A stretch of 45,138 bases of DNA from a virus: positions 1 through 45,138 of IMG/VR virus record IMGVR_UViG_3300018036_001528; one strand, 5' to 3'. The translations under genes were made by a program, and so were the position numbers. Under the pieces are notes generated by a model. The model did no database searches, was not told where the DNA came from, and saw only the letters and a list, made by a program, of their open reading frames with translations. Below, piece by piece: positions 1 through 29,391 of this stretch. The first letter of the stretch is position 1, and the number at the start of each line of letters is the position of its first letter.

Positions 1-231
1 AATACTGTTGTTAATTGTATTGATGCTAAGATTAATGCGTCTGGTGAAACACATGTTAATTCACCTAGAATCAAGTTAGGTGAAGCCGCTGCCGAGTCTG
101 TTATTAAAGGTGATACTTTTAGAGCTTGGGTTGATAGTCATACTCACGTTGGTAATTTAGGTGCTCCAACTAGTCCTCCCATGGTACCGTCACCTGAACC
201 TGCATATAGCAAGAAGAATACTACTGACTAA
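1..231 (+). CDS. Baseplate spike / hub protein, C-terminal end (partial)
   Basis: Frame 1 is open from the window edge to a TAA at 229-231, giving the last 76 residues of a protein that begins upstream. The visible end has alternating short beta-type segments (INASGETHVNSPRIKLG) followed by DSHTHVGNLGAPTSPPM. A His-x-His, Gly, Pro-Thr-Ser-Pro-Pro ending of this kind is usual at the C-terminus of gpV/gp45/gp5-type baseplate spike proteins, where the beta-prism narrows to the tip. The next genes (small partner, then the gp25 and gp6 block) fit a baseplate hub position. The N-terminal OB-fold or lysozyme part is not in the window, so the subtype cannot be told. Confidence 0.6.
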   Translation, partial: NTVVNCIDAKINASGETHVNSPRIKLGEAAAESVIKGDTFRAWVDSHTHVGNLGAPTSPPMVPSPEPAYSKKNTTD

Positions 232-239
232 TATATAAA
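232..239 (+). promoter_or_regulatory. Late-promoter-like TATATAAA element
   Basis: TAATATATAAAC spans 229-240, overlaps the stop codon of the preceding gene and lies 17 bases before the ATG at 257. It matches the element repeated at 607, 1834, 4042, 27943, 30186, 34512 and 37368. It resembles the T4 late promoter octamer TATAAATA. No convincing inverted repeat flanks this copy. Confidence 0.45.
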
Positions 240-256
240 CTGATAAACAATACATT

Positions 257-559
257 ATGGCATTAGTACCCCCAACTTTAGAAACCGCATTGACTGCAGC
301 ATATGCAGCAGCATTAACCGACTTTATTGCTGTTATTAAAGCTAACCCATTAGGTTTGGATTCAGGCGCGGCTAACCTAACAGCAGCAGTTACTTCTTCA
401 TCTGTTGTGTTTGCTAAATTAGCTACACCTGCTATTGATGCATATATAAGATCTCAAACAATTACTATACCACCAGGACAAGCCGTTGCTACTGCAGGTA
501 GCCCTGCTGCTCAAGCCGGTGCCACAACAGCACCATCACCACCTGCTATCATTGTTTAA
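257..559 (+). CDS. Small baseplate-associated protein, unknown
   Basis: A 100-residue protein, rich in Ala, Thr and Pro, follows the spike gene by 25 bases. Residues 1-65 look helical (ALTAAYAAALTDFIAVIKA). The last 35 residues are a flexible Ala/Gly/Pro tail ending APSPPAIIV. I do not recognise a family. Small proteins of this composition often follow the spike gene in myophages, so a tip or hub accessory role is plausible from position alone. The start ATG at 257 is the only good one and has no Shine-Dalgarno sequence. Confidence 0.6.
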   Translation: MALVPPTLETALTAAYAAALTDFIAVIKANPLGLDSGAANLTAAVTSSSVVFAKLATPAIDAYIRSQTITIPPGQAVATAGSPAAQAGATTAPSPPAIIV

Positions 560-606
560 ACAATTAGAATACTTAGGTGTATAACTATTATAAGTCAACA
601 GAGTAA

Positions 607-614
607 TATATAAT
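607..614 (+). promoter_or_regulatory. Late-promoter-like TATATAAT element
   Basis: TAATATATAATC at 604-615 is 27 bases before the ATG of the S1-repeat gene. Around it, ATTATAAG upstream and CTATAAT downstream can pair with one bulge, a weak version of the promoter-in-hairpin layout seen at 1857, 4065 and 16611. Confidence 0.4.
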
Positions 615-641
615 CTATAATCACGCTTTAATAAAAAATAA

Positions 642-1814
642 ATGATTGAACAAGAAATCACGATCCAGCTTAGCGACGATCCATTTGACACAAAGACAGT
701 AAAGGTACAGGTACCTAAAGGCACAAAACTATTATGTAACGAATCATATACAGCTGAGGCTATTAAAATGTATCAACTAGCCGATGAGGAAGTTGTCCGA
801 CTTCAAAAATCAGAAGAAGCAAATAATTACATAACACAAGGTGAAATAGTCCACATTAAGAAGATTAAGCAAATCATAGATGATGTGGAAGTTGAAACTA
901 AAGTTGAAGCACTTATTGATATTTCACAGAAGAATACTGCTGTTTGTGTGTTAACAAAAGAACCTAAAGAAATCGTAGACCAATTAGAGGTTGGGATGTC
1001 TGTTGATATAAAAGTAAAGAGACAATCAAGAGGGGTTCTTTATGCTTCAATTGCAGATGCATTAGATGAAGTTAAGAGAAATGAAATCTATGCTGCAATA
1101 GGAGATAAGACAGTAGGATTTACTGGTTATGTCAAAGAACTAATACATGGTGGTTACTGGGTTGAAGTTGGTGGAATCCAATGTTTTATGCCAGGATCCT
1201 TAGGTGGATTAAATAAGCTTTATGACTTTAATGTATTGGTTGGTAAAGAGCTTATTGTAATGCCTATTACATATTCAAACGAAAAACAAACTATCGTAGT
1301 TTCTCATAGAGAATATTTAAGAACTATGATACCTTCCACTGTTGAGTCGTTAAGAGAAAATATCAAAGATCATATTACCGGCTTTGTCACAGGTACCACT
1401 AAATTTGGTATCTTTGCTGAATTTAATGAATGCCTCACTGGATTAATTCCTAAAAATGAAATAGATGAAGAGACTTTAGCCAAATTTGAAAACCGTGAAA
1501 TTAAACCGGGTGATGAAATTAGTTTTTGGACTAAAGAAATTATTTCAGAAAAGAAAATCATTTTAAGTCAACAAGGTCCTAAGGTTGATCTATGGGACGG
1601 TGCTGAAGAAAAGTATAAACCAATGATGGTTACTGAAGGTAAAGTTACCAAGGTTACTAAGTACGGCGCATTTGTTGAATTGGAAAAAGGTATTAGTGGA
1701 CTTATACATAAAACCAAACTTAAAGATACTGAAGTTACTAAAGGAGACATGCTTCAAGTTAAGATCCAAAGTATCAATACAGCAGATCGTAAGATTACAA
1801 TGAACTTAGTATAA
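642..1814 (+). CDS. S1-repeat RNA-binding protein (ribosomal protein S1-like)
   Basis: This 390-residue protein carries S1-type OB-fold repeats. Two are clear: residues about 243-311 (GFVTGTTKFGIFAEF...LTGLIPKNEI) and about 328-390 (GKVTKVTKYGAFVELEKG, then ISGLIHKTKL). Both have the G-x-V-x-x-V-x-x-(Y/F)-G-x-F-V pattern and a C-terminal RKI.LS/MNLV strand. A more diverged repeat lies near 155-225 (GFTGYVKELIHGGYWVEV, SHREYL), and the region 65-140 may be another. S1 repeats bind single-stranded RNA, and in the ribosomal protein they recruit mRNA to the 30S subunit. The sequence does not show whether this one acts on ribosomes, on phage mRNA decay, or in the virion. It lies among structural genes and has its own promoter-like element at 607. 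Confidence 0.8.
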   Translation: MIEQEITIQLSDDPFDTKTVKVQVPKGTKLLCNESYTAEAIKMYQLADEEVVRLQKSEEANNYITQGEIVHIKKIKQIIDDVEVETKVEALIDISQKNTAVCVLTKEPKEIVDQLEVGMSVDIKVKRQSRGVLYASIADALDEVKRNEIYAAIGDKTVGFTGYVKELIHGGYWVEVGGIQCFMPGSLGGLNKLYDFNVLVGKELIVMPITYSNEKQTIVVSHREYLRTMIPSTVESLRENIKDHITGFVTGTTKFGIFAEFNECLTGLIPKNEIDEETLAKFENREIKPGDEISFWTKEIISEKKIILSQQGPKVDLWDGAEEKYKPMMVTEGKVTKVTKYGAFVELEKGISGLIHKTKLKDTEVTKGDMLQVKIQSINTADRKITMNLV

Positions 1815-1816
1815 CC

Positions 1817-1855
1817 TTTATCCTGGTTTGGAATATATAAACAAATCAGGATAAA
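1817..1855 (+). promoter_or_regulatory. Promoter-in-hairpin at the amidoligase-like gene start
   Basis: Left arm TTTATCCTGGTTTG (1817-1830) pairs with right arm CAAATCAGGATAAA (1842-1855) over 14 positions with a single G-U pair. The 11-base loop 1831-1841 holds the promoter-like TATATAAA (1834-1841). The right arm ends one base before the ATG at 1857. A transcript reading through from upstream would fold this hairpin over the initiation region. A transcript started just downstream of the TATA element would lack the left arm. The stem is AT-rich and has no following U-tract, so a terminator is unlikely. Confidence 0.65.
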
Positions 1856-1856
1856 T

Positions 1857-3155
1857 ATGTATTCTAACGAAGAACTTAATGCTATTCATTCCTCTAAGGT
1901 TGGATTTGAATTTGAATTTTTTGCAAATGAAAGTATAGATTCAGCCAAAGAGAGTCTTTCTAGAACTCTTAATAAGAAAATTAGAATAGAGGAAAAAGCC
2001 CATAGTGATTTTGCTCCAACCGAGGATGTCTTTAAAATGGAGCCGGATAACTCTGGTGGTACAGGGATGATTGAATTGGTCACAGGGCCTTTACCTTTTG
2101 TTGAGGCAAAATTAATAATGGCCAAAACATTAAAGTGGATAAGAGAAAACGGTACTACTAATGAAAGGTGTTCTATCCATGTCAATCTTGCGTTTGACGG
2201 TAAAAAATTAGGACCTATTACCAATATGTCTAAATTAGATATTGGTAAATTTGTTCTTAATTTTGATGAAGACCGTGTTTATGAAGCCTTTCCTAATAGA
2301 AAGGATTCTGTTTATGCAAAGTCAATAAAGTTTATTGTACCTTTAAGTGGAATGACACAGTCATCACCAGGTAAAAACATTTGGAGAAATTACGCATTTG
2401 TTAATGACAAGTATTATGGTATAAACTTTACTAAGATACCTAAAGGGTATATTGAGTTTAGGTATTTAGGTGGAAAGGATTATGAAAAGAAGTATTCCAC
2501 TATACTTTCAATGACCGAGCATTTTATTACCTCACTCTATGAAACTCTTGTTAATCCTAATTACACTGAAGATGATTTGAAGCTTTTGGATTCTGTATTA
2601 GAAAAACACAGACATGTAATAGAGTCCTATAAGACATATAAGGCATTCAAGGAAAAGTTCCCAGATATTCATTTAATGATTGATCTTAAAACAGAAAACC
2701 AAATAGTGGAAATGTTTTATCCTCGCATAAGAGAAAAGATATTTGAGCTATTAACTAAAGCCGATATGAAAGAAGGTTTAATTAATTATGACGCCGATAG
2801 TGGTAGAATACAAATTAAGGATGCCAAGCTTATGAGATGCTTTGAAGTTAAAGGAATTGATATTGTAGATTCTGTTATTCAAGGTAATATAATTAACTGT
2901 GATATCTTTGGATGTGACATTAAAAATAGCTCAGTATTTGAATCTAACTTATTTGGAGCTACTGTAGTTGAGGATTGTAAAATTGAGGAATCTTATGTTA
3001 GCAAAAATGTAGTATGTGAAGATAGTTACGTCTTTGGTAAAAGAGGTGTATTTAGCGGTGAGATGGTAGGTGGCATATTTAGACAAGGTAGAGCTACAAA
3101 TTTTGCAAGATTCAGTAAAGATACTGAAGTAATAGAGATAGAAAAAATTAAATAA
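1857..3155 (+). CDS. Amidoligase-like (COOH-NH2 ligase) protein with C-terminal repeat domain
   Basis: The 432-residue protein begins with features of the glutamine-synthetase-like amidoligase family (Amidoligase_2): GFEFEF at 16-21, an acidic/Gly segment with IELVTGPLPF at about 62-81, CSIHVNL at 105-111 and a later GYIEFRYLGG. In that family the paired Glu, the E-x-x-(S/T)-x-P segment and the His form the ATP and metal site that joins a carboxylate to an amine. After about residue 325 the sequence changes to short hydrophobic repeats (GIDIVDSVIQGNIINCDIFG, then DIKNSSVFESNLFGAT) like a pentapeptide or parallel beta-helix domain. The substrate is unknown; peptide or cell-wall amide chemistry is possible. 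Its start lies directly after a promoter-in-hairpin element. Confidence 0.65.
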   Translation: MYSNEELNAIHSSKVGFEFEFFANESIDSAKESLSRTLNKKIRIEEKAHSDFAPTEDVFKMEPDNSGGTGMIELVTGPLPFVEAKLIMAKTLKWIRENGTTNERCSIHVNLAFDGKKLGPITNMSKLDIGKFVLNFDEDRVYEAFPNRKDSVYAKSIKFIVPLSGMTQSSPGKNIWRNYAFVNDKYYGINFTKIPKGYIEFRYLGGKDYEKKYSTILSMTEHFITSLYETLVNPNYTEDDLKLLDSVLEKHRHVIESYKTYKAFKEKFPDIHLMIDLKTENQIVEMFYPRIREKIFELLTKADMKEGLINYDADSGRIQIKDAKLMRCFEVKGIDIVDSVIQGNIINCDIFGCDIKNSSVFESNLFGATVVEDCKIEESYVSKNVVCEDSYVFGKRGVFSGEMVGGIFRQGRATNFARFSKDTEVIEIEKIK

Positions 3156-3157
3156 AG

Positions 3158-4009
3158 ATGGCAAACAAAAGTTGGTGTAACCCGGATGCGGCTGAATGTT
3201 TAGATGCTTTGATCAAACAGATTAATGATGACTTAACTGTAGGTTGTCAAATACCTTTTACAGTTCCTAAAAAAGAATTGGCTAGAATTATAGATAGGGC
3301 AAAGGATTACTTTTATAAAATCTATGAAGATAGTGTAGAAGAAATGTTTATTGCTTTACCTGCATCTGCTTGGGCCGAAAAGGATTTTAGACAAGGAATC
3401 AGCCATAATAGTGGAGGTAATACTTTATCAGAAGCAGATGTAAATAACTCAAGAGGTGTGGTTAAAATGCCAGATACTATATGGGCAGTTAATAATGTTT
3501 TTGAATTGAACGGTTTTTCTGGTGAAGATGGCGGCTTTGGGGATTATTCTTTTTCTGGTATGGACCCAGATTTTGCATTAGATAAATTTATATACTCTGA
3601 TGTCTATGGTGCTGGTATCGGTTCGGAAGAACTTATGTATTATGTAATTAATTCTAAGTTTATTGATAATGCTAGACAGGTTTTACAGGCTCAGATTTCC
3701 TATAACTATAATAGGTTAACAAAGAAGCTTAGATTTATGGGAAAATTACCGGATCGAGGAGCTTGTGTTTTCCAGGTTTACAATACTATTCCTGATTGTA
3801 ATTTATTTCAAGATGAAGCCTTTATCCGTTACTGTATCGGTATGGCCAAAATACAGCTATCTAGAATACTAGGAACTTTCCAATTTAACCTACCTGGTAA
3901 TATTACTATAAACTACGATTTAATAGCTGGAGAGGGGCGTGAAGAGATTGATAGGATTGTTGAAGAGATTAAAGGCGACGAAGGTGTTGACTACTTCTTC
4001 ACCGGTTAA
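3158..4009 (+). CDS. Virion structural protein, unknown (neck or tail)
   Basis: A 283-residue protein that starts two bases after the previous stop. It is mixed alpha/beta with no signal peptide. Recognisable blocks are an N-terminal helical part (LARIIDRAKDYFYKIYEDS at about 45-65), a Gly/Asp-rich middle (GFSGEDGGFGDYSF), and a C-terminal block LGTFQFNLPGNITINYDL followed by an acidic helix ending GVDYFFTG. I do not recognise a named family. Length and position immediately before the gp25-like gene fit a neck, tail or baseplate component of a T4-related phage, but that is inference from context. Confidence 0.6.
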   Translation: MANKSWCNPDAAECLDALIKQINDDLTVGCQIPFTVPKKELARIIDRAKDYFYKIYEDSVEEMFIALPASAWAEKDFRQGISHNSGGNTLSEADVNNSRGVVKMPDTIWAVNNVFELNGFSGEDGGFGDYSFSGMDPDFALDKFIYSDVYGAGIGSEELMYYVINSKFIDNARQVLQAQISYNYNRLTKKLRFMGKLPDRGACVFQVYNTIPDCNLFQDEAFIRYCIGMAKIQLSRILGTFQFNLPGNITINYDLIAGEGREEIDRIVEEIKGDEGVDYFFTG

Positions 4010-4036
4010 TATAATCTAAGACCCTCAAAAAATGTA

Positions 4037-4063
4037 GAGAATATATAATAAAAGAATATTCTC
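4037..4063 (+). promoter_or_regulatory. Promoter-in-hairpin at the gp25-like gene start
   Basis: GAGAATAT (4037-4044) and ATATTCTC (4056-4063) form a perfect 8-bp inverted repeat with an 11-base loop. The right arm ends one base before the ATG at 4065. The promoter-like TATATAATA (4042-4050) begins in the left arm and continues through the loop. By T4 late-promoter geometry a transcript would start near 4055 and contain only the right arm, leaving the start codon open, whereas read-through RNA would be closed. Confidence 0.55.
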
Positions 4064-4064
4064 C

Positions 4065-4430
4065 ATGATTAAGGAAATTTATAGTAGAGACATAGATGCA
4101 CCTAAGTATAATGATGACATTATCGAAGTGACTGATAAGCTACAGCAACTTATCCTTAAAATAGAGAATGTATTATTTACTAGGAGAGGTGATGTATTAG
4201 GAGCCCCTAATGTAGGGTGTAATCTTGATGATCTTATCTTTTCTTTAGTGCTAAATGAATCTGTTATTGCTCAACGAATCAATACACAGATCCAAACCTA
4301 TTGCTTAAACAGTAGCGATGGAAGTTTTGGAGTAGATACTAGAGTACAGTTCTATAGCACGGTTGAAAGAAATGGTGCTTTAGTAGATATTTACATTAAT
4401 GAACAAAGAGTAATTGGTGCTCTATTTTAA
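4065..4430 (+). CDS. 25: gp25-like baseplate wedge protein
   Basis: At 121 residues it is near the length of T4 gp25 (132) and follows the GPW/gp25 pattern: an N-terminal strand and helix (EVTDKLQQLILKIENVLFTRRG), then GAPNVGCNLDDLIF at about 46-59, matching the family's R-x-G-x-x-x-x-P-x-x-G-x-x-L..L.F block, and a C-terminal beta hairpin. The conserved Glu-Pro-Arg of gp25/TssE proteins appears to be Asp-Thr-Arg here (residues 91-93). gp25 is the small wedge subunit that nucleates the tail sheath at the baseplate. The gp6-like gene follows 14 bases later, the same neighbour as in T4. Confidence 0.8.
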   Translation: MIKEIYSRDIDAPKYNDDIIEVTDKLQQLILKIENVLFTRRGDVLGAPNVGCNLDDLIFSLVLNESVIAQRINTQIQTYCLNSSDGSFGVDTRVQFYSTVERNGALVDIYINEQRVIGALF

Positions 4431-4444
4431 AAATATGATAGTGA

Positions 4445-6301
4445 ATGTCATTCTTCAGTAAAACAAGAATAAAAGCAACGGAGTTATTCTATGACGCATT
4501 TGAATATCTCCAAAGACAATACGACCAGGCCGGTGAAGTGTTTACGCCTGCGTCCCCGTTTGGTCAGATACTTACTGTAGTTGCTAACTTAGGCGAGCTT
4601 ATAATGTTTTACATTGAAGCTGTTGCAACAGAGCTTAATATATCAAGAGCACGTAACATTGAATCAATCTATGGTCTTTCTAGGTTAACTGGTCACGATC
4701 CTACGAGAGGGATATCTGCACAAGGAATAATTGGTTTAAGACTAAACACCTCGGCATCAACCCTCGTAGAAGGAGATTATGTACAGATATTAAATATGGC
4801 TCCTCTTGAAATTTCTCAGAATGGCCTTTCTTATTTTATAAAATTTGACAGTGATTATATTAGATTAGAAAAGACCACTCGGCAGTTTACTAATGTTCAG
4901 CTAATACAAGGAGAACTAGAAGACCAAACCTTTACTGGTACCGGATTGGCATTACAGAGTTATAACTTAACCACAAAGGAGCCTACTGATCAATACATGG
5001 TTGAGGTTTATGTAGATGGTAAAAAATGGAAAAAGGTAGATTCTCTTTATGATATGAATAACGGTGAAGAAGCTGCTATGGTTAAAACTAGTGTAAACGG
5101 TGGCTTAACTGTTTTCTTTGGTAATAATCAATTTGGTCAACCGCCTGCATTAGGTTCAATAATTAAGGTAACATATATAAAGACAAGAGGTACTGCTGGT
5201 AACATTGGAGGTAAAAATTTAGGTCTTAAGTTTAAAGAACCTGGTACCGATCCACAAGGTAACGACGTAGATCTTAATGAAGTCCTATCATTAAACATTG
5301 TAAGAAATCCAATGTTTGGATCAGATAGTGAAGATCCTGCATTTACCAGACTAATAGCCCCATATCAAAGTAATTCTTTTGTATTGGCTAACCCTAATAA
5401 TTACATTTACTATTTAAGCAAGTATGATTACTTTTCTTTTATAGATGCATATAATACTAAAGATGATCAGTATTTAGATGATGACAATATTGTTTACCTT
5501 TTCTTAATCCCTGATATTGCTAAAAAGATAACAAGTGACACAGATTACTTTAGTGTATCTGAGGATGAATTTGTTATGACAGCAGATGAAAAAGAAATGG
5601 TATATGATATTCTTAACCAAAGCGGCAGGCAGATTGTTACAGCTGAGGTTAGAATAAATGATCCTATAATTAAAAAGTATGCTCTTAATATTGTATTAAG
5701 ATACGTAGACGGTTTTGATAAAGAAGAGATTCATGCAGAGATTAGAGAAAATCTTAGTACTTACTTTATGATAATCAATAGAAGGGATCGTATTCCTAGA
5801 TCTGATATAATTTCAATTATTGAAAATGTGGATGGTGTTGACTCTGTTAATGTATTCTTTATATCAGCAGAAAATGAAAAGGCAATTACCGATGGCTTTT
5901 ATGTAGTTCCAGTTTATGGTACCGATCCTGTAACTGACCAAAAGGTACTTATTGAAAATAAAAAGGTACCATTAGCAGAAGGTGAAGATCCACAATTAGG
6001 GTTAGATGAATTTGGCGATGTGGTTATAGGCCCTGATGATTTAGCAATAATCAGAGGTGGGTGGGAAGATCGTAATGGAACTTACTATGAACCTATTCCA
6101 CAAAAGAATACTATAAGTTCGCTTAACATATTCTTTAAAGGCGCTATTCCAAATAACCTATACAATAAAACACAACAGAGCAAGTTTAATGATCTTAAGC
6201 GAACTCGTGGAACTACAATTGCAACTTCACGTAATGCAAGAAGTACAAATACTGGAAGGCTACAGGATAGCCCAACATTGAAAGCTATAAGAGGAAAGTA
6301 A
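4445..6301 (+). CDS. 6: gp6-like baseplate wedge protein (BaseplateJ family)
   Basis: The 618-residue protein is close to T4 gp6 (660). The N-terminal 100 residues are helical (FYDAFEYLQRQYDQAG, then ELIMFYIEAVATELNISRARN) and lead into SIYGLSRLTGHDPTRG, the usual gp6/BaseplateJ entry. A beta-rich centre (NGGLTVFFGNNQFGQPP, KVTYIKTRGTAGNIGG) is typical of BaseplateJ proteins. The C-terminal part (about 400-480) has a helix-strand domain (EEIHAEIRENLSTYFM, RDRIPRSDIISIIENVDGVDSV) like the dimerisation domain of gp6. The last 60 residues are Thr/Arg/Asn-rich and probably disordered. gp6 forms the iris-like ring of the inner baseplate. The gene directly follows the gp25-like gene and ends touching the small gene at 6303. 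Confidence 0.8.
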   Translation: MSFFSKTRIKATELFYDAFEYLQRQYDQAGEVFTPASPFGQILTVVANLGELIMFYIEAVATELNISRARNIESIYGLSRLTGHDPTRGISAQGIIGLRLNTSASTLVEGDYVQILNMAPLEISQNGLSYFIKFDSDYIRLEKTTRQFTNVQLIQGELEDQTFTGTGLALQSYNLTTKEPTDQYMVEVYVDGKKWKKVDSLYDMNNGEEAAMVKTSVNGGLTVFFGNNQFGQPPALGSIIKVTYIKTRGTAGNIGGKNLGLKFKEPGTDPQGNDVDLNEVLSLNIVRNPMFGSDSEDPAFTRLIAPYQSNSFVLANPNNYIYYLSKYDYFSFIDAYNTKDDQYLDDDNIVYLFLIPDIAKKITSDTDYFSVSEDEFVMTADEKEMVYDILNQSGRQIVTAEVRINDPIIKKYALNIVLRYVDGFDKEEIHAEIRENLSTYFMIINRRDRIPRSDIISIIENVDGVDSVNVFFISAENEKAITDGFYVVPVYGTDPVTDQKVLIENKKVPLAEGEDPQLGLDEFGDVVIGPDDLAIIRGGWEDRNGTYYEPIPQKNTISSLNIFFKGAIPNNLYNKTQQSKFNDLKRTRGTTIATSRNARSTNTGRLQDSPTLKAIRGK

Positions 6302-12673: not shown

Positions 12674-15600
12674 ATGGCTGAAAATAATTCTATATCAACT
12701 CTCTTACCTGAACTTTTAAGGTTATTCAATAATTCTTTAGAAAGTTTTGAGAAGGTTAATCAGGCCATTACTTCTAGTAATGAATCGGTTACTATCAATA
12801 TTCAAAATAATGATGGTACAAATTCCAGGGTTACTATTCCTAGTTTCGGTTTTCTTAAGAACTCTGTAGATAGACTTCAATCTAATATTAATACAATTAC
12901 TAATGTCAATGGTTCGAACAGTTCAATTAGACTTTCCGATGGTACATTTAGAAAATTAGTTTTAGCAAAGTTACCAACAGAAGCAAATAGCTTAACATCT
13001 ATTAATTCAATTGAAAACTTTAACATTAAACCTAATTGGTTTTTTGAAGAGTTAATCAACCCACTCTTATACATTTCATTTGATTTAACTGGACAGGTAC
13101 CTATTGATACTGAAAGAGCAATCATACAAAGATTTATTCTTAATACCAATACACAAGCTAAAGTTAATTACTTTACTAATAATTTTGAAGGTCGGGCAGA
13201 CATTAATTATGATACCTTTTTACAACAAATTGTAGAGAGAAATATTTCATATGTATTGGATGAAGCTGTTGTTGATCTACCACCTAGAGTTAAAAGATAT
13301 ACTGGCAACTTCAGCGTCGTTAGAATATCAGATGCCACTGTTACAGAGGAAATTAACGGTGTTACGGTCACTTCTCAAAAGAAACAATATAAACTAAATA
13401 AACTTTTTTATACTGATGCAGAGGCCGATTTTGACGACACGGTACAGCTTGCAGTAGGAGATAGTCTTGAGGTTATTACCGATCCTATTAATACAAGATA
13501 TAGAATTACTAAAATTGATTCTAGTACAAATACAGTTATATTGGAATTGGTTGAAGGATCCGAGCCTATTAGAATTGGTGCTGACATTTTAAAAATATCT
13601 TCTGCATTAGAAGATAATGTACAGGTTGATGTAACGGTAGGATTTAATGAAAGATGTGTTACTTTCGTTAAGCCTATAGATCCAGATTCAAAAATTCCAT
13701 CTGTTAATTGGTCACCGGGTAGTGCATTTTATACAAATACATTAACTACCATAAATGCCGCAGGCGTAGAACAGACTTTAGCTGAATATTACCAACAGAG
13801 TGCAATTGATTTTGGTTCGATGCTATTATCTTTTGCTGATGATAAGATTCCAACAACAAGGGAGGGTATTATTCCAAATGCGCCTGAATTGACGATTGAC
13901 GATTTTAATGTTAAGTTAATTAATGGGCAAGTTAGTGATTCTCCAGCAATTATAGAATTAACAGATTTAAATAATCAAAAGAATACCATTGAAGCTACTC
14001 TTAAAGAATTAGATGGTGCTATAGCACAGAGTAGAACAAAGATACAAACAACTAATTATTCTACTGAGGTTGAAAGAGATGCTGATAAGAATGCATTACA
14101 AGGTTTAATTACAGAGAGATCTTCGCAGGCGCAACTGTATTCATCCGTTGTAAAGGAGATAGATGCTAAATCTAAAGATAATTCAGTATCAAGCATAACA
14201 CCTAAATATAGGGCTAGAGGTTTTTGGCCAATGCCACAGGAAAAATCTACACCAGCTACCGGTACACAGTCAATCGTTAAGTTTAAGATAAGATACCGAT
14301 ACCTATCAAGTGATGGTGCAGCCAACCCGGTAGATCAGTTTACTTTTACTGATGGGTCTGGAAAAAGCCAAGGTGCATTTTCTAATTATAATATAGTTGA
14401 AAGTACCCTTAGGCCTAGAGAAAGAAACCCAATCACAGGTACATATGAATGGATTGCAATTGATGCAGATAATGCAGATTCAGTAAATATTAACCAGTTA
14501 GACATACCAATTAGAAAGGGTGAACAGGTAGAGGTACAGGTTAAATCAATAAGTGAAGCAGGATGGCCATCAAACCCATTAGAGAGTTCTTGGTCTAATC
14601 CAGTTATAATTCAATTCCCAGCTGACTTAAGTTCGGATAATGCAACCGAGGCAATACTAAATCAGAACCAACAAGATTTGGCTAAAGTAAGTCTTGAAGA
14701 AGATCTAAATGCAAAAGGTATTGACCAGCATTTAAGTAGTTCATTTACTGCAAACGAAACTTATTTTGCTCACTCAACACCGGTTATTGCATCAGGTTTC
14801 TTATCTGAGAACCAAACGCCAATTGATCTATTTACTAAGCTACAAGAAATGCAAAATCGTTTAGACGAGTTTGCTGAAATACTTAGAAATGCTCAAGGTA
14901 ATTTGGTTGTTACTTTAATTGATGATCAAGGTAATGTAACTAACCTTAAGAGAAATTCTTTAACTAAAGTTTTTGCTGGTTTTTATTCCCAAGAAGTATC
15001 TAACCTAGATGATCCTAGAGGGGCTATTATATCTAAAACATTCTTTATTAACTTAGCCAATAATGAACAAACTGGACTAAGATTAATTTCTAGGATTGCC
15101 GGTAACAGAGGCCGCATGGTTAAACAATCAGAAAATCCTAATTACACAATAAGTGAGGTAACTGGGGGTAGTACTATTTTACCTGCTACTTATTCATGGT
15201 TAGATAACAGTTCGGTTAATCAAAGTAGTGGTGTTGCAACGTTTACTTCAGACGATGCTGATTATAATACTGTTAGAAAATATGACCTAACACCGGTTCT
15301 TTTGACTAATCCTACTGTGGATGGTAACTGGAGTTACGGTCAGACCACATCTTTAGCACCTTTCCAATCAACACAGAATAAAAATCAATTTATTAATAGT
15401 AGATATAGCGATGTTTCTTCTGAGGAAAACTTTTACAATTACCGCAACCCAGACAATGACTTTACATTTAATTTAGATTCTGCTGAAAATTTCTACGGTA
15501 GAGATACAGGGACAGTTTCAATTGATCCGGCTGAATTTATTTGGGGTGGTGGGTTTGATGCTACTGGTGCACCAACAACCGCAGGGACTTACCCAATTGC

Positions 15601-16560: not shown

Positions 16561-16611
16561 TTTGATTTTCACTTCCATCTTGGTGAATAAATAAAAAAAG
16601 TGAAAATTAAA
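16561..16611 (+). promoter_or_regulatory. Promoter-in-hairpin at the 1543-residue gene start
   Basis: TTTGATTTTCACTT (16561-16574) pairs with AAGTGAAAATTAAA (16598-16611) over 14 positions with one G-U pair; the central 10 bp are perfect. The right arm ends on the A of the ATG at 16611, so the start codon is partly in the stem. The 23-base loop includes GAATAAATAAAAA, a variant of the late-promoter-like element. The layout matches those at 1817-1855 and 4037-4063. No U-tract follows. Confidence 0.6.
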
Positions 16612-19600
16612 TGGCCGAAAGACTTTTTGACAAAGCATCGTATAGTATTGTTAGAACTAATCCTAAATTAACAGCTAATGTTAAGTTAGTTAGTAACGGC
16701 GATAATCTTTACTTAGAATCATTCAGTGCAAATACTGAATTGGCATCTTCTACATTTAAAGCATTTAAGATAAGTGGAAAGGATACTTATGATAAAGATG
16801 TCTTTAGATTTTTTCAAGGCGGTAAATTTCCTACCGATTTAGCTTACGAAGTTTTCCAAGAATATCAAGACGTTTCGGTCTTATCTCAGTATCAGAATCA
16901 ATATGAAATGTTCTATTCAGCCGGTACAAGATCAGTGTCTTCATTGGCATATACTGAGGATCTAGGTATGTTAGCGCCTTTATGGCTAAATGAACAAATA
17001 CCCAATTACTTTGTTGTATTTAGAATTGATAATCCTGCAGCCGTTAATAACATTAATGCTGAATTAGAAAACGCAGATTATCTTAATGCACAAACATCAG
17101 CTAATTTTACAAAAAATGTATTAGAGAATTGTACAGCAATTAAAACATTTGACTTAAGCTCTAATAGTTTACTTGGATCTTATATTAGAAATTACCGTAA
17201 CCTAGAATCGTTCCCTAAGTCGCCGTTGACCGTTAGCTGGAGAAAGGATGAACCGATACAGTGGAATGGTATTAATTATAAGAAAGGTGGCTTTACCTCA
17301 GCAGGTAGCTATTCATACGATGATCTTGTTGCACAGGATTCAACGATTATTCAAAATGAATTTTTCTTTACTCAAGGATTTGAAAGAAACGGTGTTCTTT
17401 TAGCAAACTTAATTAACCTTGAATTTTTGTTTTCCGATAAAGACGCGCCTGATTATTCTATTAATAGATATTTTGGATTATATGTAAATGAAGTAGAAGA
17501 AGGTAGGTTTGATATATCAGGAGAAGGCTTCTTTAAGAATACCGAAAAGACACAGCTACCGAAAATTAAAACTATCCAAGAAGTATCTGAACAATTAAAC
17601 ACGCCGTTTGAGATTGAAAATAGTAACGGTGTATTAGTTTTTCTTGACCCTTCAAAAACTACAACCGTTACTGGTCTACCCACCCCTAATAGAGTTAATG
17701 AAGTTGAATCCATATTTTATGTTAAAGATAAGAATAACGACTTTCATACTATCAAGAAGGGTTCAACTTGGGGAAATAATCAAATAAGATTGTTTGACAA
17801 AACGATTGATATATCAAAACTTGCAGGGTTTAAAACACCTGATACCTATGCCAATGCTAGCATAATACAGAGAAAAGGGCAATCAACATGTAGCTTTAAG
17901 ATTACTAATGAATTAGTGGATGGTTTTAAGATTACTTTTTATGATAGCAATAATAGAGTTGGTGAAGTGGCTGCTAGTTCAATCGAAGTACCTAATGTAG
18001 GACAAAGTAAATATCATTTCTTTAATCCTAATGGAACCCCGCAAGAAATTGCAAAAGCCATAACAAATGCTATAAATATAGGTATACCTAAAGAGAAGAG
18101 ATTCTTTGAAGCTTCATATAATAATGATACGGTTTATGTAGAGTCAAGATTTAGTGGATCAAGATTTAATAGACTTAATTTTGAATTAGATTTTACTGAT
18201 TATCCGTTAATGGTTAATGCTATATCAACCTACCCATCAACATCGGTAAATAATCCTAATGAAAACTTTGTAGGTGGAAATGACGTAACCGGTTCTTTAC
18301 TTAAAGTTACAGCAGGAGATCAGGATCGGTTCGTAAAAGGTAACTATGTTCAGTCTAAAGATGGATTTGCCCAGATAGGTGATTGGGTGCCTTATTTAGA
18401 GGAGCCGATAAAAAACAGTAGTGGTAAAATTATTGGTTATAATAATATTGACACGAATGTAATTATAACTCTTAACGATAATCAAATTGAAACTACGCGA
18501 AGTGGTCAAGTTGCACTGTATTCTGATTATAGACCTTCGTTTGGTAGATTTTCAATATTTCCTATAAGAGATTTTGACTATGATTTCTATAGCACAATGT
18601 TTAGCCAAATGGGTGAGCTATCTTATGAAGAATACTACTACAAAAATAGCTTATTTGGGCGAAGTAATCCTGAAATTAGAGAGTTTTATTATGATGATGG
18701 TGGCTTTGCTACACTTATAGGATTGCTAAAAGACTCAGATCCAGATCAATCTTTTGATTCTATTATTAATTCTGAGTATGATAGGCTTGAAGAAAACTAT
18801 TTAAAACAACAGGCCGTTGCATCTAGAGTAATCCCTTACATAAACAAATGGTCATACTTAAATGACGGTAAGAATGTTAGAAATCTTCCGTATAGTTTAA
18901 ACTTAAGCGAAGCATTCGGGCAAAATAATTTTGCGCCGTCAAAATATTCTATAGGGCAAGATCCACTAGGCTTCACACATGAATGGTATTACTTATGTGA
19001 GTTTCCTGATTATTTTGATAATGAAGCCATTAAGAGTTCATGGAGTTATATAGATAATGCACCAGTAGATTCTACTGAAGAAAATCCTTTCACAGGTTCA
19101 GTATATTCACCAGGTACATTCCAGAAAATTGACAAGGATTACTTTAATGATTACTTTATAGTTGATAAGTTTACTACCGGCGGTCAGATAAACTTAATAG
19201 ATAAGCAACTTAGATATGGGAGATTTAGTGGAGGCGATGAAAAGAATTTTGCTGAAGCTTTTTTAAGAGGTGTTAGAATAATTGCAAAACCAAAAGCAGA
19301 TATAAACAAGAAACCTAACTTTAATGCAAAATCATTATCATATGTTAATGATGGTAGATTTAATGATTATAGGTTTTCGGTAATGCTTATACCAAATGCA
19401 CCTGATAAGCCTGAGACACAAATTAAATTTATCAAGAATGATAAGTGGAAAACTGTTGTAATGTTAATCTTTCTTACACTAGAAAACAAGTGTGTTAATA
19501 AGGGTTCACAGAGTATTGATAGAACGGTTTTGTATTCATTTGAAAGTGATTATCAAACACAAGACTGCCAACCTATCCAGGTATCAGGACAAGGATATTT

Positions 19601-21242
19601 ATATGAGCGTGGTATCGTACAGGGTGCAATAAGCTTTTTAGCTACTTCATTTAATCCTACGGTACAAGCCTATCTTGTACAGGGTGTGGTTGATGTAAAT
19701 GGTATACCTCCTAGATTTTTGCGTGATATTACAATAGGTAGTGATGGACAATTTAATCCAATAAAATTTGAAATTGGATCCGACATATATGAGATTAGTG
19801 GAATACAGAGGGTTGTTTCTGATTCACAGTTTTTTGCTACAACCATTACTCTTAACGGGTCCCCTTATATACCTGGTGGCCCAACCCCTAGTTCGTTGGA
19901 GTTATTAGAATCAAGTTACTTTACGGTCGGCGGCGGTTTTAATGCATATACGTCTAGATTAACCGATGTTGGCTTTGCTTCTATTTTTAAAAATGTTAAT
20001 CAAGGTGCACCTAATATTGTCTATGAAACTATTGATAAAGAAGGTAATAGGATCCTAGATAATAATGGAGATTTAGCACAAACATTTTCTATTGAACTTA
20101 GAGCACAAGAAGATATTATTAAATCTGTATACATTGGTGTCTTACCGGATCCTGCCAAACCTACAGTGTTTAACTTGACTGATATTATTGGATATGACTT
20201 ATCATTACAAACTAAACCTAGAGTTACACCTATTGGTAGACATGCCGGTTATTATGAGCCAACTTCGTTAGATATATTCTTCTTTAGAGACCCTTATATT
20301 AATATTGACTTTGATACATCTACTGGAACAGGTAGCACTGGAACGGGTAGTACTGGAACGGGTAGTACAGGTGGTCCAATACCTGATGAAGTTTACAAGT
20401 ATAAAGTTATGGAGTTGTGTAGATATGCAAACACACAATTCAATAGTAGCGACACTGAAAGGTTTGGACAAATTAGAAATCTTTTTTATCATAAAGTTAA
20501 TGAGGAAGATCCTTCAACAGTATTAGAGCTTTCTACTGATAGCGCATACTTAAGTTTATATCCACTTATTAATGAAGTAGGTATTTTTAGTAGAGATTTT
20601 TATACATTCTCTTCAAACTGGGAACCTGCATATTTTAGAAAGAGTATTGATAAATCCCAAATACAATCAGTTATTGGTACAAGAGCAATGACTGAAAGAA
20701 AATCATTCTTTGGTTCTAAGTATTTAAAGGTCCCACAACAAATTGAACTTGAAACTTTTATACATTCTGAGGAATTTATTAAAGATGCTATTAAACAACC
20801 GTCTCTTATAGAAGGTAACTTTATGACAGAGGAAAATGATACTTATGTTAAGTTCTATATGTTTATTCAGAAGAGACTAATTGAGTATCTCTTTGGACCT
20901 ATTAAAGAACAGTTTAAAAAGTATATTAAGCCTGAATTTAGTTATGCAGATATTGAAACTTTAGATGATGATGTTGAAAGATACATTAGACAAAATATCT
21001 TACAATTATACAAAATAGCAAATGTTGATTTTTACGTTAAGAGTACTAGAGAAAATCTACCGTTAAATTATTCAACTGCTGCATTAACAAATTCGGAAAA
21101 GGCAGCCAGCGGATTAACTATTAACACGGCGGTTGGATCAAAGCTACTTAATACCAACCTATTTGATCTGAGCCTAATATATAACAAAAGGACAGGGTTT
21201 ACTGAATCATTTGGGTTTAGTATAACTATAGTTAAAAAATAA
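16611..21242 (+). CDS. Very large baseplate or tail structural protein (1543 aa)
   Basis: This is the largest gene in the window. The protein is Asn/Tyr/Phe/Asp-rich with mixed beta content, no signal peptide and no membrane segment. Its N-terminus (MAERLFDKASYSIVRTNPKL, then TANVKLVSNGDNLYLESF) is typical of large structural proteins of T4-related phages of Bacteroidota and marine hosts, but I cannot name a family. A Gly-Ser-Thr-Gly-Thr repeat interrupts it at DNA 20319-20375. The last 250 residues are more helical (EEFIKDAIKQPSLIEGNF, LIEYLFGPIKEQFKKY, ADIETLDDDVERYIRQN). The gene has its own hairpin-embedded promoter-like element, suggesting its timing or dose is set separately from upstream genes. 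Confidence 0.6.
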   Translation: MAERLFDKASYSIVRTNPKLTANVKLVSNGDNLYLESFSANTELASSTFKAFKISGKDTYDKDVFRFFQGGKFPTDLAYEVFQEYQDVSVLSQYQNQYEMFYSAGTRSVSSLAYTEDLGMLAPLWLNEQIPNYFVVFRIDNPAAVNNINAELENADYLNAQTSANFTKNVLENCTAIKTFDLSSNSLLGSYIRNYRNLESFPKSPLTVSWRKDEPIQWNGINYKKGGFTSAGSYSYDDLVAQDSTIIQNEFFFTQGFERNGVLLANLINLEFLFSDKDAPDYSINRYFGLYVNEVEEGRFDISGEGFFKNTEKTQLPKIKTIQEVSEQLNTPFEIENSNGVLVFLDPSKTTTVTGLPTPNRVNEVESIFYVKDKNNDFHTIKKGSTWGNNQIRLFDKTIDISKLAGFKTPDTYANASIIQRKGQSTCSFKITNELVDGFKITFYDSNNRVGEVAASSIEVPNVGQSKYHFFNPNGTPQEIAKAITNAINIGIPKEKRFFEASYNNDTVYVESRFSGSRFNRLNFELDFTDYPLMVNAISTYPSTSVNNPNENFVGGNDVTGSLLKVTAGDQDRFVKGNYVQSKDGFAQIGDWVPYLEEPIKNSSGKIIGYNNIDTNVIITLNDNQIETTRSGQVALYSDYRPSFGRFSIFPIRDFDYDFYSTMFSQMGELSYEEYYYKNSLFGRSNPEIREFYYDDGGFATLIGLLKDSDPDQSFDSIINSEYDRLEENYLKQQAVASRVIPYINKWSYLNDGKNVRNLPYSLNLSEAFGQNNFAPSKYSIGQDPLGFTHEWYYLCEFPDYFDNEAIKSSWSYIDNAPVDSTEENPFTGSVYSPGTFQKIDKDYFNDYFIVDKFTTGGQINLIDKQLRYGRFSGGDEKNFAEAFLRGVRIIAKPKADINKKPNFNAKSLSYVNDGRFNDYRFSVMLIPNAPDKPETQIKFIKNDKWKTVVMLIFLTLENKCVNKGSQSIDRTVLYSFESDYQTQDCQPIQVSGQGYLYERGIVQGAISFLATSFNPTVQAYLVQGVVDVNGIPPRFLRDITIGSDGQFNPIKFEIGSDIYEISGIQRVVSDSQFFATTITLNGSPYIPGGPTPSSLELLESSYFTVGGGFNAYTSRLTDVGFASIFKNVNQGAPNIVYETIDKEGNRILDNNGDLAQTFSIELRAQEDIIKSVYIGVLPDPAKPTVFNLTDIIGYDLSLQTKPRVTPIGRHAGYYEPTSLDIFFFRDPYINIDFDTSTGTGSTGTGSTGTGSTGGPIPDEVYKYKVMELCRYANTQFNSSDTERFGQIRNLFYHKVNEEDPSTVLELSTDSAYLSLYPLINEVGIFSRDFYTFSSNWEPAYFRKSIDKSQIQSVIGTRAMTERKSFFGSKYLKVPQQIELETFIHSEEFIKDAIKQPSLIEGNFMTEENDTYVKFYMFIQKRLIEYLFGPIKEQFKKYIKPEFSYADIETLDDDVERYIRQNILQLYKIANVDFYVKSTRENLPLNYSTAALTNSEKAASGLTINTAVGSKLLNTNLFDLSLIYNKRTGFTESFGFSITIVKK
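20319..20375 (+). repeat. GSTGT 15-base tandem repeat inside structural gene
   Basis: About three copies of a 15-base unit (GGTAGTACTGGAACG and variants) encode GSTGTGSTGTGSTGG, preceded by Thr-Gly-Thr. It is a flexible linker or short collagen-like run and a likely hotspot for copy-number change. Confidence 0.75.
21175..21185 (+). promoter_or_regulatory. Possible intragenic late-promoter-like element
   Basis: TAATATATAAC lies in the last 70 bases of the 1543-residue gene, 64 bases upstream of the fibre ATG at 21250. It matches the intergenic element closely, but it sits in coding sequence, and similar matches by chance occur at 32733 and 34433. Confidence 0.25.
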
Positions 21243-29118: not shown

Positions 29119-29391
29119 ATGGTAAAGGCAATAAAAAATAGAATATTTCTTAAAAAAGATGAACAACCTGAAAAAATCGGAAGTATATACATGCCAAAAA
29201 CCGAAGGGCAGTATGCTCCACCGTATTCAGGTACAATCATTTCAGTAGGCGATGAGGTTAAGGATAGTGATTTTAAAGTAGGTGTTAAAGTATTCTTTCA
29301 TGACATGGCAGGAACTGAATTTGAGTTTAATGGAGAAAAGATTTTCAGTATCCGTGAGAATGATATAACTGCAATTATTCTTGATTCATGA
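29119..29391 (+). CDS. groES: GroES-like co-chaperonin
   Basis: The 90-residue protein follows the Cpn10 pattern: KAIKNRIFLKKDE at the start, a mobile loop about 17-33 with GSIYMPKTEG, where Ile-Tyr-Met takes the place of the GroEL-binding Ile-Val-Leu, then SGTIISVGDEV, KVGVKVFFHDMAGTEFEFNG and a C-terminal NDITAIIL. It caps GroEL rings. T4 brings its own co-chaperonin gp31 so that host GroEL can fold the large capsid protein gp23. A similar role is likely, since no GroEL gene is seen here. This protein is nearer to bacterial GroES in length and pattern than to gp31. Its stop overlaps the next start (ATGA). Confidence 0.85.
   Translation: MVKAIKNRIFLKKDEQPEKIGSIYMPKTEGQYAPPYSGTIISVGDEVKDSDFKVGVKVFFHDMAGTEFEFNGEKIFSIRENDITAIILDS

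Follow-up and report, generated by a model that had tools for sequence, protein, structure and literature searches.

Can one stretch of DNA serve both as promoter and as RNA hairpin, and so decide from which RNA a gene is translated? This question is raised by positions 1817-1855 of the window, as we call the whole stretch of 45,138 nucleotides that was analysed, where a hairpin with a promoter-like element in its loop directly precedes an amidoligase-like gene.

Genome setting

The window, a virus record of 45 kb, comes from a large uncultured bacterial virus and carries a series of + strand genes. On the left side, matches to head-tail adaptor, baseplate and tail-tube proteins were found and on the right side matches to RuvC, GroES, SSB, primase, a UvsY-like protein and helicase; the GroES-like co-chaperonin gene is located at 29119-29391 (phrog_3188). 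The best match in the phage collection was LR756500, a 462-kb uncultured phage (51% identity for the baseplate protein and 43% for the amidoligase-like protein), and Lak phages showed about 31% identity to the baseplate protein. Relatives of the latter occur in Bacteroidetes phages and also in Rhizobium and Sphingomonas phages.

Upstream of the hairpin an S1-domain (RNA-binding) protein is encoded at 642-1814 (+; Pfam S1, E 4.7e-21), and the stop codon of this gene ends 2 nt 5' of the hairpin. Among the 80 listed loci, 76 show the S1 gene in front of the amidoligase-like gene, and the remaining four begin only at, or within, the latter gene. It has a promoter element of its own, ATATATAA at 606-613 (+), without a hairpin, which served as an internal control. 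In the hairpin-less relatives L023, L030, L040 and L041 the gap between the S1 gene and the amidoligase-like gene amounts to about 500-620 bases.

The amidoligase-like gene itself (1857-3155, +) seems, judged from the predicted model of its product (pLDDT 91.9), to encode a protein with a glutamine-synthetase-like part and a beta-helix-like C-terminal part of many short strands. A Foldseek search against the PDB gave 17 matches with E<=0.001, all glutamine synthetases by title (probability 0.99-1.00), with pentapeptide-repeat proteins lower in the list at E about 0.01. The earlier naming of the gene as an amidoligase gains partial support from the top folds and is weakened by the low TM-scores of the glutamine synthetase matches (0.25-0.31) and by the Pfam Amidoligase_2 score, which at 21.4 bits stays just below the gathering cut-off of 22. 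Among 27 aligned relatives, Amidoligase_2 was matched by eight (E<=0.001) and Pentapeptide_4 by one.

Structure of the hairpin

The left arm, TTTATCCTGGTTTG, is located at 1817-1830 (+; from sequence, fold and conservation) and the right arm, CAAATCAGGATAAA, at 1842-1855 (+; from sequence and fold). Together they form 14 pairs, 13 Watson-Crick and one G-U, around the 11-nt loop GAATATATAAA (1831-1841, +; from sequence and logo), which holds the promoter element AATATATAA at 1832-1840. A single base, T1856, separates the right arm from the ATG at 1857-1859, and the arm covers positions -15 to -2 relative to the start codon. The preliminary description had given the pairing, the loop and the one-base spacing in exactly this form. 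Folding of the RNA of 1800-1880 gave a minimum free energy of -19.2 kcal/mol against a mean of -9.02 for dinucleotide shuffles (z -3.95), and 1 of 200 shuffles was equally good. When loops of 3-20 nt were searched, it was the sole hairpin in the window with at least 14 pairs and at most one G-U, and none was found by the same measure in 10 first-order Markov sequences of window length.

In the long RNA the hairpin is predicted to lie over the SD region and/or the start codon. The window stem is confined to -15 to -2, and in the relatives L189 and L220 the AUG itself is paired. An alternative 12-pair stem between the promoter and the coding start (1828-1839 with 1856-1867) was rejected; by eye it seems impossible where the first codons are ATGTACAC, and in the hairpin-less clade such a stem occurs as GGAATATAT/ATGTATTCC.

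Promoter element and leaders

Upstream regions of 60 nt were collected from 726 ORFs that were mechanically called in the window, in the contigs of eight relatives (one of them almost identical to the window) and in five stretches of phage records. The two commonest 8-mers were AATATATA and ATATATAA, present before 97 and 94 ORFs, respectively, and the distance from element to ATG peaked at 15-19 nt. Within the window the bare 8-mers ATATATAA and TATATAAA were each seen 15 times, against 9.5 and 10.4 expected, which is not significant. A logo over 69 sites showed G or T followed by AATATATAA and then A-rich sequence, and no position further upstream stood out as a -35 box. As far as sequence can tell, the AATATATAA/ATATATAA motif looks like a real promoter signal. 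We take the element to resemble the T4 late promoter box, and it may be called a late promoter by analogy, from this likeness and from its place before structural genes.

A sigma-70-like factor was encoded in one of the 10 records searched and an RNA polymerase beta-subunit in none of 10 records, which may be fragments. The sigma-70-like gene is located at 1420-2058 of L325, a 181-kb relative (Pfam Sigma70_r2, PHROG 1740), and its product is a candidate reader of AATATATAA.

The leaders are A-rich and SD-poor. SD-like 4-mers were present at -18 to -5 in 36 of 496 genes versus 40 of 496 at -33 to -20, and hence are not enriched. Hiding of an SD in the strict sense was rejected for this lack of enrichment and because the AGGA of the right arm is missing in L220 and L189, which keep the hairpin.

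Conservation and covariation among relatives

Viral contigs were scanned with three amidoligase-like proteins and one profile as queries. Each scan listed at most 80 loci, the totals in three of them being 94, at least 540 and 104 relatives. From the 254 loci in the upstream analysis, nine with less than 40 nt upstream and 26 without an ATG start were left out; the remaining 219, many of which repeat the same contig, gave 59 distinct sequences, 47 of them at >=60% identity. Among these listed loci, ATATATAA was present in 46 of the 47 distinct upstream sequences and ended 16-19 nt before the ATG. The left flank paired better than its shuffles (P<=0.02) in 36 of 45 motif-bearing distinct sequences, and a stem score of >=16 was likewise reached in 36 of 45, where 2.2 were expected. 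Thirty-eight of the 46 rows were classed as hairpin-bearing, the weakest being L252 and L024 with 7-8 pairs; L038, L219 and L171 have 9 or so pairs and a larger loop. The hairpin is absent in the other eight (L023, L030, L037, L041, L042, L043, L179 and L181), and since this clade keeps gene and promoter without it, the hairpin is not essential. Below 60% identity, eight of 12 distinct sequences are without ATATATAA and the other four fail the shuffle test at 0.05.

In L220, L255, L189 and L250 the arms are wholly different yet complementary. They read ACATACCAGGTTTAA/TTAAACCTGGTATGT in L220 and ATTCTGCCTGAAT/ATTCAGGTAGAAT in L255, and L189 has a 23-pair stem of unrelated sequence that runs into the start codon (fold z -7.25). 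As a MAFFT alignment of the leaders placed the left arms out of pair register, re-pairing between lineages was used instead of counts per alignment column. Pairing of each of eight lineages with its own right flank summed to 232, whereas permuting the right flanks gave 121.5 on average. This total was reached by 2 of 20,000 permutations, where about two hits are expected from the identity and from the one swap between L044 and L038, which share a right flank. With three hairpin-less rows added, 0 of 20,000 permutations reached it. In a 12-lineage matrix own pairing only equalled the best alternative for L038 (21.0) and fell below it for L252 (14.5 versus 16.0), and by columns the right flanks of these two pair better with other left flanks. 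That pairing is kept while the letters change suggests that the fold itself matters, and the re-pairing, the G-U bias (see below) and the shuffle test all point to pairing kept by selection.

The ATG-only step had passed over L187 and L192-L194, which were counted only in the terminator scan. L192, L193 and L194 (60%, no ATG; a TTG start would be a guess) carry a further set of arms, AACTAAAT/ATTTAGTT, around ATATATAATAAAA, with a fold z of -1.87 and 11 of 200 shuffles equally good.

On a tree of 49 proteins three changes of the hairpin label are needed, of which the starred branches force only two. L189 sits among seven hairpin-less rows (starred branches 100/97 and 100/98) on a long end branch of 0.61. 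Because of this position, loss of the hairpin followed by a new gain with new arms is the simplest account for L189; it is not proven, and several losses could also explain the tree.

Other genes with the same layout

The preliminary description had counted three such layouts, which we took to be those at the starts 1857, 4065 and 16611. The gene at 4065-4430 (+) matches baseplate wedge subunits weakly (PHROG 43 and 261, E 7.2e-4 and 8.5e-4), and the name gp25-like is our own reading of this match. Its hairpin has the left arm GAGAATAT at 4037-4044 (+), which overlaps the promoter element AATATATAA, and the right arm ATATTCTC at 4056-4063 (+), 1 nt before the ATG at 4065. Stem scores of >=16 were found in 34 of 59 distinct sequences (3.9 expected), with only 10 of the 59 rows beating left-flank shuffles; the arms are changed in L220 and L193.

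The third hairpin precedes a gene for a 1543-aa protein of unknown function (16611-21242, +; phrog_31887, E 8.5e-38). Here 14 pairs are formed between TTTGATTTTCACTT at 16561-16574 (+) and AAGTGAAAATTAAA at 16598-16611 (+), the latter including the first base of the start codon, the A at 16611, and a variant element, GAATAAATAA at 16585-16594 (+), is located in the loop. All 17 distinct sequences of this gene scored >=16 (2.8 expected), 12 of them at P<=0.02; in a stricter search the scores were 13.5-30.5 and 0 of 5000 permutations reached the total. The arms are changed in L299, L296 and L100.

Of 62 distinct sequences upstream of the S1 gene, 59 contain a promoter of the same class (by a pattern that allows variants), and in this control two of the 59 scored >=16 where 2.1 were expected. 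Among 86 promoter-bearing genes of other families five reached this score, with 4.4 expected. No hairpin excess is thus seen in either set, and the layout is concentrated in three gene families.

A probable gate on read-through RNA

We consider it probable that promoter and RNA hairpin, lying on the same DNA, constitute a translational gate on read-through RNA. A polymerase reading through from the S1 gene would copy both arms, and the resulting RNA would fold over -15 to -2 (in some relatives over the AUG too), so that the ribosome could not load. A polymerase starting at AATATATAA, presumably guided by a phage promoter-recognition factor, would produce an RNA with its 5' end some 6-8 nt beyond the element (an assumed start). 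Without the left arm and the loop, this RNA could not fold back and would be translated. Expression of the amidoligase-like, gp25-like and 1543-aa proteins would then be set by their own promoters, whatever the transcription upstream.

The structural half of this proposal, already put forward in the preliminary description, stood up well: the promoter is in the loop, the right arm lies over the start, the pairing covaries and is biased towards G-U, and the start is costlier to open in read-through RNA. The transcription start, the read-through, the translational block and any timing are inferred. Opening energies were calculated for positions -13 to +6 with an assumed RNA start 6 nt past the element. 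In the window, opening of the start would cost 15.0 kcal/mol in read-through RNA versus 4.5 in promoter-born RNA, and the difference between both RNAs was 4.2-18.7 in the 38 hairpin rows versus 0.6-5.1 in the eight without. The mean unpaired probability in the window was 0.33 for the promoter-born RNA, which is thus only partly open, versus 0.23 for the read-through RNA. The prediction was reversed for seven of the eight hairpin-less rows, with the longer RNA clearly more open than the promoter-born one.

Timing or dosage

The gate could serve timing, as in T4, or the amount of protein. In a version that is compatible with the gate and that we regard as a serious possibility, if one held tentatively, the hairpin makes the gene independent of the S1 unit and the gene's own promoter sets the protein amount. 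Since the S1 promoter, the nearest one upstream, has the same element (the class found in 59 of 62 sequences), read-through RNA and own RNA should arise together and may be present simultaneously, and gating of early against late expression is therefore not implied. The terminator-like hairpins that replace the gate in L187, L199 and L200 fit insulation as such. On the other hand, promoters of an earlier class may stand further upstream, and comparable hairpins of T4 e and I-TevI separate early from late expression according to passages of PMC3014915. Dosage control and timing appear to us about equally likely.

A wider reading is that the three genes form a regulon, with a gate that evolved independently of T4, was lost, swapped for a terminator or re-invented, and with leaders that are opened or read by the S1 protein. 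As a whole we think this unlikely. S1 proteins in host ribosomes have been proposed to bind A-rich leaders (in part of PMC6847099), and a link of the S1 gene to the leaders is therefore conceivable; if the S1 protein did open them, the gate would be a regulated switch and not a passive one.

Terminator-like hairpins

The position directly behind the S1 stop codon, at 2 nt, would also suit a terminator or a 3'-end protecting hairpin of the S1 unit, an explanation that we rate as quite improbable. In its favour, L247 has a T run after the arm, partly absorbed by its longer stem, and true terminator-like hairpins occur in this region of L187, L199 and L200. For the window hairpin an intrinsic terminator was rejected: it does not combine a GC stem with a T run, and a scan of window positions 1-6000 called no terminator-like site there. 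A run of at least four T in the 10 nt that follow the right arm was seen in none of 40 rows with a stem score of >=14. Termination also fits poorly with the hairpins of the 16611 and gp25-like genes, where the promoter likewise lies in the loop or an arm and the start is immediately adjacent to the end of the right arm. A 3'-end protecting role is compatible with these data.

A terminator scan of 130 nt upstream gave a hit in one of 39 hairpin rows (L252, weak), in one of 10 hairpin-less rows at >=60% identity (L187) and in two of 12 distant rows (L199 and L200), which are small numbers, against a background of 2 in 1220 shuffled sequences. These last three rows lack the promoter hairpin. In L187 (66%, GTG start) a GC-rich stem with a T run is located just before the promoter, upstream of 3001. 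The presence of terminators in rows without the hairpin hints that insulation from upstream RNA is the selected trait; 19 of the 22 rows without the hairpin have neither hairpin nor terminator.

RNA or DNA structure

The hairpin could act as a DNA palindrome, either as the operator of a dimeric repressor on the promoter or as a hairpin promoter of the kind used by the N4 virion RNA polymerase. The dyad does bracket the promoter element. Precedents exist in the N4 hairpin promoters, in which the hairpin is needed for promoter recognition and the stem sequence is conserved, and in the operator over the I-TevI promoter that is described in sections of PMC2988022. The stems were examined for G-U and A-C cells, both penalised alike. 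In 37 amidoligase rows 38 G-U cells were found versus six A-C cells, the latter all from outer stem parts of L028, L017 and L032, and in 16 rows of the 16611 gene 10 versus two; these counts are cells and not events, many G-U cells being one inherited pair. The excess of G-U over A-C on the sense strand favours coding-strand RNA over a DNA palindrome. In addition, whole arms are swapped while the pairing stays, which a sequence-reading protein would hardly permit, and the same element occurs in other families without hairpin excess. The N4 type was rejected on this last ground and because the stem sequence is not conserved. Altogether, we judge action as DNA to be very unlikely.

Although the phage is AT-rich and chance readily produces weak stems at ATATATAA, a mere by-product of base composition is hardly credible, since the arms covary between lineages and the fold z, the Markov scan, the shuffle tests and the re-pairing permutations all exceed expectation.

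Relation to known leaders

The T4 precedent to which the preliminary description had appealed is confirmed by the literature: in T4 e, soc, 49 and I-TevI the long RNA hides the start in a layout that blocks translation, as the relevant passages of PMC3014915 and PMC2988022 have it. As proposed here, RNA from the late promoters just upstream of e, soc and 49, located near the 5' strand of the hairpin, loses the 5' part and is translated (same passages of PMC3014915). As with the window hairpin, only some relatives have that of T4 e. The differences are the phage group, the lack of SD enrichment here and the genes, which are amidoligase-like, baseplate-wedge-like and that of the 1543-aa protein instead of e, soc, 49 or I-TevI, so that the hairpins stand before three gene families, one of baseplate-wedge type. 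By analogy, the window case may work like the T4 leaders; no homology is claimed.

Promoter and RBS-hiding hairpin are likewise combined in one leader in I-TevI, I-TevII, I-TevIII, segB and Aeh1 mobE (in the sections cited of PMC2988022). These homing endonuclease genes are mobile, and what their hairpins hide is an SD, whereas here the leader is A-rich and SD-poor and the gene is conserved among relatives. T4 gene 25, the namesake of the gp25-like baseplate gene, likewise begins with a conserved stem, and its structure is counted among those that improve initiation in a passage of PMC3014915; an excerpt of PMC2988022 lists gene 25 among the repressed genes. The gp25-like stem differs in sharing sequence with the promoter and in reaching almost to the start codon. 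In a Bacteroidetes model, initiation is tuned, independently of an SD, by mRNA structure near the start and by upstream adenines (part of PMC6847099). The A-rich, SD-poor leaders are alike in this respect, but the host of the window phage may belong to another group. In open-access PubMed Central, including passages of PMC9723584, PMC7824862 and PMC8948821, we found no case described, beyond T4-type phages, of a promoter located within a hairpin that hides the start; the stem-loop before a phage sigma gene in PMC8948821 has another layout and is read there, in the portion concerned, as possible processing.

It is the comparative evidence, and not one hairpin, which suggests that a further group of large environmental phages employs the start-hiding trick of T4. 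The genes of these phages show no SD enrichment, and structure may here rank among the main controls of initiation. The hairpins mark three genes as needing independent control, and a promoter motif is now given for the group. Clades that carry the hairpin, lack it, use a terminator in its place or may have regained it provide a natural experiment.

Two further arrangements were observed. In L255 and L097 a hairpin of 10 pairs encloses the promoter of the S1 gene, and the gp25-like gene scores low there. At 14818-15333 (-) of L101, of which none of the seven family members appeared among the 30 best of the hairpin scan, a lone 16-pair hairpin is found with TATATAA at the loop and the ATG inside the right arm.
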